A DNA stretch of 64,000 nucleotides from NCBI GenBank assembly GCA_016209015.1, contig JACQWY010000019.1, forward strand, positions 1 to 64,000. The letters are read 5' to 3'. A program made the translations under genes and the position numbers. Below are positions 12,001 to 45,012 of this stretch, piece after piece. The notes under the pieces are model-generated. The model had not been told where the DNA came from and did no database searches. It saw only the letters and a program-made list of their open reading frames with translations. Origin of the DNA: Gammaproteobacteria bacterium (GTDB taxonomy: Bacteria; Pseudomonadota; Gammaproteobacteria; Ga0077536). Each line of letters begins with the position of its first letter. Within the stretch, counting starts at the first letter, position 1.

Positions 12001-15000
12001 CGGAAGCCGTGGCTTTCGAATTCAGGAGGCCGAAGCCTGCCGCGCTGAAGCTGAAGCCGACGCCTTTCGCCTTCGCGACGTTCACGCCCTCGCTGCGCAG
12101 GGCAATGGCACCGGTCGCGGTCAGGACTGCGCCGGCGTTGATGCCGGCGTTCACCGTCGCGGTGGAATCCGCCTGCGCAATCGAGGCACTGATGGTGATC
12201 ACGCCGACCGCCGGCGCTTCGGCTTCCGCGAACGCGCCGCGCACGTCGCCGCCGGCGACGTGATTGATCGGTTGCAGCGTGATGGGATCGACTTCGTGGC
12301 CGGCGACGATGGTCACATCGCCGGTCACGTTGATATCGCCGCCGACAGTGGCCGCGACGTCCGGATTGACGGTGGCACGCGCCACGCTGACGCCGGCCGC
12401 GAGACCGCCGATGCTCAGACTGAAGACGTGCGTATCCGCGTTGTGGTCGGTACCCGCGTAGACGGCGAGGTTGCCGGTCGCGCTGATGTGCGAGCCGTCG
12501 CCGATCGCGGCATGGACGTCGGGCGTGATGTCGGCGAACGCGAAGTTGAACGTGCCGGCGCCGATGCCGCCCGCGACGGCATAGGTATCCATCTCGATGC
12601 CGACGTGCGAAGTGGCCTTGACGGTGATGTTGCCGACGTGGCCCGTGCCCTGGCCGATGTTCGTGTTGACGCCGATTCCGGCATAGGTGTCGAGCACGCT
12701 CGAATTGCCGACCGCGATGCGGCTGAACGAGGCCCCGATCGCGACGACGCCGCCCTCCACGCCGATGGTCAGGGCGCTGAAATCCTGCACGGTGGCGGCC
12801 GTGATGCCGATGCTCGCGGCGTTGTTCACCGTCGCGTAGTCGGCGATGTAGGCCTGGTTCGTGCTCTTGACCGTCATCACCGAGACGCCGACACCGAGAC
12901 CCACGAAGCCGCCGCCGAACGCGAAGGAATGCTGGTCGATGTGCTCCTCGAGCTTGCCGTTCACGGTGATGCCGCCGCCCGCGTCGAGCGTGCCGCCGGC
13001 CGCGGCGCGCGCGTTGTTCGCGACGTTCAGCACGCCGATCGCCGCACCCACGCCGACGAGACCGCCGCCGCCGCCGCCGACCACGAAATCCGCGGCGGAG
13101 CGATCCGTCGCGCCGAAGGCGATGCCGCCGCCGGCCGTGATCGTCGCGCCGTTCTCGCTGAACGCCTGCGTGCCGTTCGGCACGACGCCGCTCGAGAGCA
13201 GGCCGCGCAGGCTCGTACCGCTCGGGCCGGTGGTCTTCACGCTCGTCGAGGCCGATTTCGCGACCGCGCCCAGGCGCTCGTTCGCATCCGTCTTCGCGTC
13301 GCTCTGGTTGCCCTGGTTGTAGCCCGCGAGCAGATCGCCGACGCCGCTGTTCATCGAGCCGGCCTGGTCGGCCGCGCGCTGATCGACGCGCCCGCCGTTG
13401 CCGGACAGCGCATCGCCCGTGCGATTGCTGTTGTCGGAATAGCCCGCCGTCATCGGCGTGCCGATCGACCACACGGAGACCGCGCCCGCAATGCCGGCGA
13501 CGCCGCCGGCGATGCTGAACGTGAAGCCGGAGTTGTGATCGAGATGCGTCGCGCCGATCGCGACGTTGCGGGCCGCCGCGACGCTCGCGCCGGCGCGCAC
13601 GAACGCGCTCGTGTCGTTCTTGATGCTGCCGACGTCGACCGCGCCGGCGACGCCGACCCAGCCGGCGGCGATGCCGCCCGCGAAGGAGAACGTGTCGACG
13701 TGGTTGCCCGCGCGCACCGTGACGTCCTGAGTGCCCGTCGCGCCCGCGTTGTCGTTCGTGCGGTTCACCTGCGCGCCGTTGTCGATGTACGCGCTCGTGC
13801 CCGAGCTGATGAGGCTGACCGCGACACCCCCCGCGATGCCGACGACGCCGCCGCCGGCCGCGATCGCGAGATGGAAGACCTTTTCGTCCGAGGTCGCCTG
13901 CACGACGACGCCGTTCGCCGTCGTCGTGTCGAGCGAGGACGTGCCGTTCGCGCCGCCGGTCAGGACGTTCGAGATGCCCGTGCCCGCGCCGAGCGCGTCG
14001 ACGTGGGCGTTCGCGCCGATGAACGCCGAGGTCGCCTTCGTCATGCTCAGCACGCCGACCGAGGCGCCGATGCCGACGGAGCCGAAGCCGCCGGCGCCGG
14101 AGACGACGAGGATGTCCGTGCGATCGTCGGCGAGCACGGCGACGTCGCCGCCCGCGTAGACCGTCGCGCCCGAGTTGATGGACGCCGTCGTCGTGTTGTT
14201 GATGACGGGCACGGTGACCGCGCCTCCGATGCCGACCGTGCCGCCGCCGATGCCGGCGCTGATCGCGAGGATGTTCTCCGAGGCGACCGCGGTCACGCCG
14301 ACGTCGTTGCGCGCATTGACCGTCGCATTGCTGCCGATCCACGCCTGGGTCTTCATCGAGAGCGCGCTGACGCCGACGGCGGGCGCGATGCCCGCGCCGC
14401 CCGCGATCGCGAGCGCACCGGCGACCTCGAGATGATAGAAATCGCTGCCCGCGCCGACGACGACGGACTGGCTCGCGTTCGCCGTGCTCGTGTCCGCGTT
14501 CACCGTCGCACCGTCGCCGATCCAGGCCTTTGCCGTCGTGTCGAAGACGTTCACGCCGGCGCCGACGGCGATCGCCGCCGTGCCCGCGCCGCCGCCCGAC
14601 ATCGCGAAGTTCTTCACGCTGTCGCGGTTCGTCGCGCTCACCGCGAGGCCGCGGAAGCCTGCGTCGTGGGCGGCGCCGGCCGTGCGCAGGCCGCTGAACA
14701 TCGGGTCGTTGCGATCGTCGACGCCGTCGTGGTTCGTGTCGACTGTGCCGTCGGTGTTGCCGTCCTTGTCCGCGTCGACCATCTTGCCGATGTCCGGCGG
14801 GCCGAACTTCGCGTCGGAGGCGGTCGGGCGGTGGCCGTTCTTGATGTCGACGTTGCCGGGCTTCTGATCGGTGGCCGAAGCGTCGTAGCCGATCGCGAAG
14901 CCGCCGGTGTTCGCATCGATCGCGCTCCAGCCGTCGGCGGTGACGTTCGCGCCGTTGCCGATGAACGCCGAGACGCGCTTCGTGACGACGGGCACGCCGA

Positions 15001-41270: not shown

Positions 41271-41383
41271 GGGTTCCGCCTGGGATGGGACGAGCGATGC
41301 GGGCGATCATAGCGCCCACCGGGACAGACTGGCCATTCGAACGCGAGTTCAATATGTATAGGAATGTGTAGAAAGGCCTGAAT

Positions 41384-41521
41384 AAGTCCATCCTGGACTT
41401 TTCAGAGCACGGTCGGCAAGAAGCGTGGTTCTTGCCGACCTTACGTGAACAATGGCTTACGCCACTGTTCACGGCGGCACATCCTGTGCCGCCGGAAGCT
41501 CTGAACTTGTTCGGAGCTTCC
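41384..41521 (+). repeat. Array of five stem-loops upstream of pfp
   Basis: Five inverted repeats follow each other: 41384-41400 (AAGTCC, loop ATCCT, 6-bp stem); 41411-41440 (perfect 12-bp stem GGTCGGCAAGAA/TTCTTGCCGACC); 41445-41472 (GTGAACA stem with an inner GGC stem); 41473-41493 (perfect 8-bp GGCGGCAC/GTGCCGCC, loop ATCCT again); 41494-41521 (8-bp GGAAGCTC/GAGCTTCC). The last three touch without a spacer base. The array lies between the divergent bepA and pfp genes and would be in the pfp leader or could be a REP/MITE-like element. No coding frame spans it. Confidence 0.8.
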
Positions 41522-41600
41522 TATATTCTATGTACCCGATCGCTCCCAGGCGTTCGTGGTGCGCGCGGTTCTACGAGTGGAAGCTGACGGAGGCGAATCC

Positions 41601-42869
41601 ATGGCGGACAAACGGAATGCTTTCTATGCCCAGTCGGGCGGGGTCACGGCGGTCATCAATGCCACGGCCTGCGGCCTCATCCAGGCCGCGCGCGAACGTG
41701 GGGACGCGATCGGCAAGGTCTACGCGGGACGCAACGGCATCGTCGGCGCGCTGCAGGAGGACCTCATCGACACGTCCGCGGAATCCGACGCGGCGATCGC
41801 GGCGCTCCGCCACACGCCCGCCGGGGCCTTCGGCTCCGCGCGTTACAAGCTCAAGAAGGTGACCGAGAACCGGGCCGAGTACGAACGTCTCGTCGAAGTC
41901 TTCAAGGCCCACGACATCGGCTACTTCTTCTACAACGGCGGCGGCGACTCGCAGGACACTTCGCACAAGGTCGCCGAGATTTCGAAGGAGCTCGGCTATC
42001 CGCTGACCTGCATCGGCATCCCGAAGACCGTCGACAACGATCTGCCGATCACCGACAACTGCCCCGGCTTCGGCTCGGTCGCGAAATACGTGGCGGTGTC
42101 GATCCGCGAGGCGGGCTTCGACGTGGCCTCGATGGCCAAGACCTCGACGAAGGTCTTCATCCTCGAGGTCATGGGCCGCCATGCCGGCTGGATCGCGGCG
42201 GCGGGCGGCCTCGCCCACGAGGCCGAGGGCGACGATCCGCACCTCATTCTCTTTCCGGAGCTGACGTTCGACGAAGAGTCCTTCCTCGCGCGCGTCGACG
42301 AATGCGTGAAGCGCCACGGCTACTGCACGGTCGTCGCTTCCGAGGGCATCAAGAACGCGGAAGGCAAGTTCATCGCGGACGCCGGCACCCGCGACGCCTT
42401 CGGGCACGCTCAGCTCGGCGGCGTCGCGCCCGCGCTCGCCGCGCTCGTGAAGAGCCGCCTGAAGATGAAATACCACTGGGCGCTGGCCGACTACCTGCAG
42501 CGCGCCGCCCGCCACATCGCCTCGAAGACCGACGTCGAGCAGGCCTATGCGCTCGGCCGGGCCGCGCTCGAAACGGCGCTCGCGGGTCACAATGCGGTGA
42601 TGCCGACGATCGTCCGCCTGAGCGACGACCCTTATGCCTGGGAGATCGGCGAGGCGAAGCTCGCCGACGTCGCGAACGTCGAGAAGAAGATGCCCCGGGA
42701 TTTCATTACGCCGGACGGATACGGGATCACGCCGGCCTGCCGGCGCTATCTCGCGCCGCTGATCCAGGGCGAAGACTATCCCCCGTACAAAAACGGCCTG
42801 CCCGATTACGTCAAGCTGCGGAACGTCGGTGTGCCGAAAAAACTCGGCACCACATTTGCACTAGGCTGA
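41601..42869 (+). CDS. pfp: Pyrophosphate-dependent 6-phosphofructokinase
   Basis: The enzyme reversibly phosphorylates fructose-6-phosphate with PPi. The 422-residue protein has GGGDS at 113-117, whose aspartate in place of the ATP-type glycine marks PPi enzymes, and PKTVDND at 141-147, where Lys142 replaces the Gly of ATP enzymes and Asp145/Asp147 are catalytic. MGRHAGW at 191-197 binds the sugar phosphate. I chose ATG 41601 because GGAGG lies 7 nt upstream and the family begins there. Its partner H+-PPase follows 121 nt downstream, which fits a shared PPi pool. Confidence 0.93.
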
Positions 42870-42884
42870 AACCCAAGTAAAATC

Positions 42885-42936
42885 GGCCGCGCCCGGCCCG
42901 GGAGGCCCGGGCGCGACCTCGCACGAGGGCGCGGCC
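42885..42936 (+). promoter_or_regulatory. GC-rich stem in the pfp-hppA spacer
   Basis: A perfect 10-bp outer stem (GGCCGCGCCC/GGGCGCGGCC) encloses a further CCCGGG-based hairpin. No T-run follows, so it is not a typical terminator; transcription into hppA is likely to continue. The hppA ribosome site GGGAG and an uninterrupted six-T run lie 45 nt further downstream, just before the ATG. Confidence 0.4.
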
Positions 42937-42990
42937 ACAAGCGCCCCACACCATTCGATTCAAGACCGAGACCAACCGGGAGCTTTTTTC

Positions 42991-45012
42991 ATGTCCCCAA
43001 TCGTATTTGCGATACTTTGCGGGTTCATCGCCATCGCCTATGGCGTGTGGTCGATCCGCTGGATCCTGTCGCAGCCGCAGGGCAACGACCGGATGCGCGA
43101 AATCGCCGCGGCAATCCAGCAAGGCGCTGGCGCATATTTGAACCGGCAGTACACGACCATCGGCATCGTGGGTGTCGTGCTCGCCATCGTGCTGGCGGTC
43201 GGCCTCGACAGGTTCACCGCCGCGGGCTTCGTGCTCGGCGCGGTCCTGTCGGGCGCGACCGGCTACATCGGCATGTTCATTTCCGTCCGTGCGAACGTCC
43301 GTACCGCCCAGGCCGCGAGCAACGGCATGGCCGCGGCGCTGGCCGTCGCGTTCCGGGGCGGCGCGATCACCGGCATGCTGGTGGTGGGACTGGGGCTCCT
43401 GGGCGTCGCGGGCTACTTCGCGCTCGCGCCGTCCGTTCTCGGTGCGACGGAAGAACAGACGCTGCACGGCCTCGTCGGCCTAGCGTTCGGCGGCTCGCTC
43501 ATCTCCATCTTCGCGCGTCTCGGCGGCGGCATCTTCACGAAGGGCGCCGACGTCGGCGCAGACCTCGTGGGCAAGGTCGAAGCCGGCATCCCCGAGGACG
43601 ACCCGCGCAACCCGGCCGTCATCGCGGACAACGTGGGCGACAACGTCGGCGACTGCGCCGGCATGGCCGCCGACCTCTTCGAGACCTATGCGGTGACCGT
43701 GGTCGCCACGATGGTGCTCGGCGGGCTGATGAAGGCCACGATCGGCGAAAACGCGGTGCTCTATCCGCTCGTCCTCGGCGGTGCCTCCATCATCGCCTCG
43801 ATCGTCGGCACGTTCTTCGTGAAGGCGCCCGACCAGAAGATCATGAAGGCACTGTACAAGGGGGTCATCGTCTCCGGCGTGCTCGCCGCCATCGCGTTCT
43901 ACTTCATCACGGGGAACATGATGGGCGACAAATCGCTGCCGCTGTTCTACTGTGCGCTGACCGGCTTGGTGCTGACCGGCGTGATCGTGTGGATCACCGA
44001 GTACTACACCGGCACCGAGTACGGCCCCGTCAGACACGTGGCGGCCGCCTCGCAGACCGGCCATGCGACGAACATCATCGCGGGCCTCGGCGTGTCGATG
44101 AAAGCGACCGCACTGCCCGTACTCGCGGTGTGCGCGGCGATCTGGCTCGCGTTCCACTTCGGCACCCAGTTCGGCAGCGGCCTGTACGGCATCGCGATCG
44201 CGGCCACCTCCATGTTGTCGATGACGGGTATGGTCGTCGCGCTCGACGCGTACGGCCCGATCACCGACAACGCGGGCGGCATCGCCGAAATGGCCGAGCT
44301 GCCGAAGGAGATCCGCAATATCACGGATCCGCTGGATGCGGTCGGCAACACCACGAAGGCCGTGACCAAGGGTTACGCGATCGGCTCCGCCGGTCTCGCC
44401 TCGCTCGTGCTCTTCGCGGACTACACGCACAAGCTCGCGGAAGCCGGCAAGTCGATCACCTTCGATCTCTCCGATCACATGGTCATTATCGGCCTGTTCA
44501 TCGGCGGCATGGTGCCCTACCTCTTCGGCGCGATGGCGATGGAGGCGGTGGGCCGCGCGGCCGGTTCGGTCGTGAACGAGGTGCGCCGGCAGTTCCGCGA
44601 GATCAAGGGCATCATGGAAGGCACGGCGAAGCCGGATTACTCGCGCGCCGTCGACATGCTGACCAAGGCGGCGATCAAGGAGATGATCGTCCCTTCGATA
44701 CTGCCGATCCTCGTGCCGGTCGTGGTCGGCGTCGCGCTCGGCGCACAGGCCCTCGGCGGCGTGCTGATGGGCACCATCGTCACGGGCCTGTTCGTCGCGA
44801 TCTCCATGACGACGGGTGGCGGCGCCTGGGACAACGCGAAGAAGTACATCGAGGACGGCAATTTCGGCGGCAAGGGTTCCGACGCCCACAAGGCCGCCGT
44901 CACCGGCGACACCGTGGGCGACCCCTACAAGGACACCGCCGGCCCCGCCGTGAACCCGCTCATCAAGATCATCAACATCGTCGCGCTGCTGATCGTGCCC
45001 CTGCTCGGGTAA
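42991..45012 (+). CDS. hppA: Membrane-bound proton-pumping pyrophosphatase, K+-independent
   Basis: The pump couples PPi hydrolysis to proton export across the inner membrane. The 673-residue protein has about 16 membrane helices and the PPi-binding motifs DVGADLVGK at 187-195 and [12 protein letters not shown] at 213-224, plus the C-terminal [20 protein letters not shown]. The residues that separate K+-independent from K+-dependent enzymes read [10 protein letters not shown], with Lys456 and Thr459, the K+-independent signature. GGGAG precedes the ATG by 8 nt. With pfp it forms a PPi-using energy module. Confidence 0.96.

Follow-up and report, generated by a model that had tools for sequence, protein, structure and literature searches.

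A five-hairpin element of very probable IS5 type upstream of pfp in a gammaproteobacterial genome and in distant relatives

The window analysed here, a stretch of 64,000 nucleotides from contig JACQWY010000019.1 of a Gammaproteobacteria bacterium, carries upstream of pfp an array of five hairpins which is very probably a non-autonomous IS5-type transposable element (MITE). The assignment follows from the IS5-type ends and target of the element, from two insertions whose empty sites could be located, and from the closed genome G159, where copies of the element coexist with transposases of an IS with similar ends. As a MITE, the element is of a known kind. MITEs are commonly taken to be local derivatives of a single IS that do not last long. 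A five-hairpin plan kept over class-level distances, with compensated stems, offers a test of whether MITEs of DDE transposons can persist for long as parasites whose structure is under selection.

The window copy and its neighbourhood

Folding placed all five stem-loops where the sequence-only reading had put them, the last three following one another without a spacer. The stem lengths proposed there (6, 12, 12, 8 and 8 bp) hold for a 12-bp stem, but several stems are longer (7, 13, 10 and 13 bp). The proposed extent of 138 bases does contain the hairpins, but the repeat unit is larger and runs from 41371 to 41521, a span that takes in a worn left terminal repeat. The array had also been judged too regular to be due to chance, and this agrees with the RNA fold of positions 41370-41540, at -93.7 kcal/mol against -47.5 +/- 4.0 for shuffled sequences (z -11.5; 0 of 200 shuffles as low). 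The copy at 41371-41521 matches the covariance model of the element with 134.6 bits over model positions 1-152. Its parts, as compared with intact copies, and the neighbouring gene are as follows.

41367..41370, no strand: left flank TGTA, the expected target duplication site, which differs from the right flank TATA (41522-41525)
41371..41521, plus strand: copy of the five-hairpin mobile element (MITE), 151 bp, about 97% identity to the genome consensus
41371..41386, plus strand: left terminal inverted repeat, worn, GAAAGGCCTGAATAAG against the consensus GGAAGCTCTGAATAAG of intact copies
41384..41400, plus strand: hairpin 1, loop ATCCT region; inner stem 41384-41390/41394-41400, 7 bp
41411..41440, plus strand: hairpin 2; stem 41411-41422/41429-41440, 12 bp
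41444..41473, plus strand: hairpin 3; stem 41444-41456/41461-41473, 13 bp with one mismatch
41472..41494, plus strand: hairpin 4, loop ATCCT region; stem 41472-41481/41485-41494, 10 bp
41494..41521, plus strand: hairpin 5; stem 41494-41506/41509-41521, 13 bp with one mismatch
41506..41521, minus strand: right terminal inverted repeat with one change, TTCGGAGCTTCC for TTCAGAGCTTCC of intact copies
41601..42869, plus strand: pfp, PPi-dependent phosphofructokinase, neighbour outside the element (PF00365; NF010675, 648 bits)

In intact copies the stem of hairpin 1 runs on through GCTCTGAA/TTCAGAGC. In hairpin 5 the right terminal repeat and its mirror together form a palindrome, and this hairpin is terminator-like on the plus strand. 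The loops of hairpins 1 and 4 both read CATCCTG in the window copy, so that two loops do share ATCCT, as had been noticed. This identity is due to a one-base deletion in the window copy: the loop of hairpin 4 is CATCCCTG in other copies, with the consensus ATCCCT. Judged by this missing base, by three changes in the left end and one in the right end, and by its unlike flanks (TGTA and TATA), the window copy is old and has decayed slightly.

The intergenic region around the array is divergent, with an M48 peptidase gene on the minus strand to one side and pfp on the plus strand to the other; the likely ATG of pfp, at 41601, is 79 bases downstream of the array. The identification of this gene as PPi-PFK from its sequence is upheld by the NF010675 match. 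Across 41601-45012, pfp is followed directly by a gene for a membrane-bound pyrophosphatase, the two forming a pyrophosphate-linked pair.

The sequence-only reading had offered an RNA control element of pfp as one explanation. A structured RNA leader acting in cis would agree with the short distance to the start codon, with folding far beyond chance and with the terminator resemblance of hairpin 5, but it is very improbable. The five-hairpin element was absent within 1.5 kb of all 29 other pfp loci in the family, the window's locus being the only one of 30 to carry it, and a dedicated pfp RNA switch is therefore unsupported. Moreover, about 70 unrelated genomic sites carry the element, a search of Rfam at gathering and loose thresholds returned no matching family, and the stem mismatches, with equal counts of G.T and A.C, do not point to selection acting on a single RNA strand. 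The placement of the element before pfp is incidental, and the window copy may still affect pfp secondarily, for instance by acting as a terminator.

Copies in the source genome and in other genomes

A BLAST search of the source genome (5.7 Mb in 65 contigs) with positions 41370-41535 as query revealed at least about 40 near-full copies with 93-99% identity, 40 of the 136 candidates having been scored. The 16-base end GGAAGCTCTGAATAAG, allowing up to one mismatch, was matched 121 times in this genome against 0 times for the reversed pattern. At least 70 copies or fragments could be placed, at unrelated sites. A genome search for copies had been suggested by the sequence-only reading, which counted a dispersed repeat at many unrelated sites against its own proposal; such dispersal is what the search found. 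Intact copies are about 152 bp long, from GGAAGCTCTGAATAAG to CTTGTTCAGAGCTTCC. Their ends are 16-bp inverted repeats (GGAAGCTCTGAAYAAG), and the 4-bp duplications of the target are mostly YTAR: among the 29 source-genome copies with both ends, 26 have identical 4-bp flanks, and 25 of these 26 are YTAR. The element is thus short, non-coding and multi-copy, as MITEs are. Neighbouring genes are convergent at 20 copies and divergent at 4 (heuristic gene calls), the pfp copy being among the few divergent ones, and copies in tandem gene contexts show no orientation bias (12 versus 16).

In the closed genome G159 the end pattern was found 144 times in forward and 138 times in reverse orientation, which corresponds to about 140 elements. 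Perfect 4-bp duplications flank 28 of 30 copies there, 24 of these 28 being YTAR, and the neighbouring genes are convergent at 8 copies versus divergent at 4, weakly in the same direction as in the source genome. Across several genomes, YTAR flanks 33 of 39 distinct elements, all of which had been selected for a 4-bp duplication. Additionally, two insertions of genome G295 are missing from G184, a genome of the same genus, at a locus which is otherwise collinear with 86-94% identity. The mobility that had been suspected from the sequence is borne out by these empty sites as well as by the many copies, the terminal inverted repeats and the 4-bp target duplications. Plasmids and phages gave no match to the element.

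About 22 copies of the source genome lack almost exactly one 16-bp end, with breaks at consensus positions 14-18, 21 or 135-138 (as examples, L022, L023, L038 and L042 lack the right end, and L020, L210, L211 and L215 the left end). Without exception, the end that is missing faces the higher coordinates of contigs whose orientation is arbitrary, and no such skew exists in closed G159 (144 versus 138); the one-ended copies are therefore probably an assembly artefact and were rejected as a biological signal.

IS5-type ends and candidate transposases

The target of IS5 is YTAR (PMC10359306), and the ends of E. coli IS5 are GGAAGGTGCGAACAAG and GGAAGGTGCGAATAAG. The ends GGAAGGTGCGAAYAAG of E. coli IS5A, a member of the IS5 group of the IS5 family, have 12 of 16 bases in common with the element in left-to-left pairing, and both share the C/T variation at base 13 and a 4-bp YTAR target duplication. 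IS5-type ISs of relatives have YTAR duplications and ends closer to the element than those of E. coli IS5, nearly identical to its own, such as L120 (GGAAGCTCTGAACAAG, with TTAA), L116 (GGAACTTCTGAACAAG, with TTAA) and L117 (GGAACGTCTGAACAAG, with TTAG). Unlike IS5, the element is only about 150 bp long, has no coding sequence and contains five internal hairpins that are absent from every IS5-type IS examined. The model found no match inside the bodies of 52 IS5 loci, with which only the ends are in common. A derivation of the element's internal part from IS5 bodies, which is optional among MITEs, was rejected on this result, and the element is therefore not a simple deletion derivative.

Genome G159 has five IS5-type transposase genes (NF033581, 353 bits), carried by an IS with the ends GGATGCTCTGAACAAG/GGAACTTCTGCAAAAG, which are similar to those of the element, and one copy of the element sits precisely within the CTAA duplication that flanks an IS of this type (NF033581). 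An IS5-type transposase was present in 19 of 77 element-bearing genomes versus 25 of 292 element-free genomes (Fisher p = 3e-4, kinship ignored). It accompanies the element in G159, G008, G116 and others, and is absent from closed G054 and from the source genome, where searches with PF01609 and InsH found no parental IS5-type transposase. Because these two genomes lack the enzyme, mobilisation by IS5-type transposases can only be inferred, and we do so from the similar ends, the same target, the co-occurrence and the presence of an element inside the target duplication of such an IS. On these grounds it is likely that IS5-type DDE transposases move the element in trans. Insertion of intact copies at YTAR, with duplication of those 4 bp, is itself shown.

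The array had also been called REP-like, a term which stands as an analogy only, since an IS5-type MITE with target duplications is not a REP. REPIN hairpins show compensatory changes, and REPINs and the element are both hairpin-forming mobile DNA with such changes (PMC3116915). REPINs have RAYT tyrosine transposases and one hairpin, whereas the element has five hairpins and DDE-type insertion scars. That it is a REP or REPIN moved by a REP-associated tyrosine transposase is hardly credible: its high copy number, intergenic sites and compensatory hairpin changes are as in REPINs, but the clean 4-bp target duplications with empty sites, the IS5-type ends and the absence of a GTAG/GGAG foot from the consensus all argue against it.

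Conservation of the five-hairpin plan and its possible causes

A combination of BLAST and pattern searches recovered the same layout, 145-153 bp long, in many genomes, and 35 representative elements fold into the same set of five hairpins, small exceptions aside. In a MAFFT alignment that was not fitted to structure, 89% of the cells are paired and 32 of 60 pairs show changes on both sides. Such changes amount to 185 cells, against 55 with shuffles, which do not keep relatedness, and at most 75 with slid structures, a control that leans toward structure because the structure string was taken from folds of the aligned sequences themselves. As an example, one pair is A-U in 18, G-C in 12 and C-G in 5 sequences. 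The five hairpins are thus shown to be a heritable feature of the family, in which stem sequences differ between lineages and pairing is kept. The loops of hairpins 1, 2 and 4 are far more conserved than the stems (TCC in 1 and 4, GYG in 2), a pattern suggestive of some factor that recognises them.

With the covariance model, 77 of the 369 gammaproteobacterial genomes sampled proved to contain the family, in 57 of 272 genera. A sample of the phylum yielded it in 47 of 299 genomes, most of which belong to a single small-genome family outside Gammaproteobacteria, whose elements again show the ends, the order of hairpins and the YTAR flanks. Other bacterial MITEs, namely Correia/NEMIS, ERIC, RUP and the Coxiella QMITEs (PMC10969869), are likewise short, with terminal inverted repeats, target duplication, many intergenic copies and strong predicted secondary structure. 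To our knowledge, those families are each confined to one genus or family, whereas the element extends over these 57 genera and beyond the class, its five-hairpin plan being fixed and its stems compensated. No description of the element family was found in the open literature searched.

Selection on one RNA strand is expected to leave more G.U pairs than A.C mismatches. The stems of 79 elements contain 90 G.T and 91 A.C mismatches, compared with 13 and 0 in a tRNA control that is small and whose detector favours paired stems. Since the two types are equal, pairing appears to be maintained without strand preference, as expected for DNA palindromes, for template-switch correction or for RNA roles that are blind to orientation. 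A selected role of the hairpins at the DNA level, in mobility or persistence, is the reading that we prefer, and it is quite possible, if somewhat short of an even chance. The probable reason would be that DNA in hairpin or cruciform form helps the element to move or persist, and template-switch correction between arms may contribute to keeping the stems paired. More tentatively, we suggest that one ancient non-autonomous lineage, its five-hairpin plan selected as DNA, may have spread within Gammaproteobacteria and outside the class as a parasite of successive IS5-type transposases, the hairpins taking part in its mobility.

The paired changes could also be unselected, if template switching between arms perfects the palindromes and the transposase spreads the copies. 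Both the symmetric mismatch types and source-genome copies that differ by a paired change in hairpin 2, T-A to C-G (L032 versus L005), are in line with this. We consider it rather unlikely, as it leaves the persistence of five hairpins across classes, with their order, length and conserved loops, unexplained, and as a C.A mismatch in hairpin 2 stands uncorrected throughout the subfamily L012, L019, L039, L040, L048 and L049. An element working as RNA in either orientation, as a bidirectional terminator or an mRNA-stabilising array, would also select for hairpins, and with no orientation bias among copies, selection on either strand would yield symmetric mismatches. The convergent excess in the source genome fits such a role, but it is only 8 to 4 in G159 and promoter avoidance accounts for the same bias; moreover, the loops are conserved strand-specifically, which an RNA role indifferent to strand would not require, and most copies lack a U-tract, so that we hold it to be unlikely. 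Far less probable still is a titration of CsrA/RsmA by GGA loops of minus-strand transcripts (AGGGA/ATGGA in hairpin 4). The TCC of loops 1 and 4, which reads GGA on the opposite strand, is conserved in most elements while the stems vary, but only two of the five hairpins carry the motif and the signature of an RNA strand is absent.

The element also cautions that covariation by itself, however strong, can mark mobile DNA palindromes instead of an RNA, and a count of G.T versus A.C mismatches helps to tell the two apart. Elements of this sort can be a trap for RNA-discovery screens, and short-read assemblies may break at them.

Variants of the layout were also seen. Longer elements of 202-205 bp (L323-L325 in G159, L088, L101 and L104) have an extra module in or beside hairpin 1, 2 or 4, made of hairpins with TCC loops (GTCGCTCC...GCGAC and CATCC hairpins), which has the look of another dispersed hairpin repeat, nested inside the five-hairpin one. 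Finally, G054 contains tandem arrays of the element (G054:C1:2569141-2569521 and 13931-14534) with a period of about 124 bp and a common 12-base end repeat, which probably arose when the left end recombined with its mirror copy in hairpin 5.
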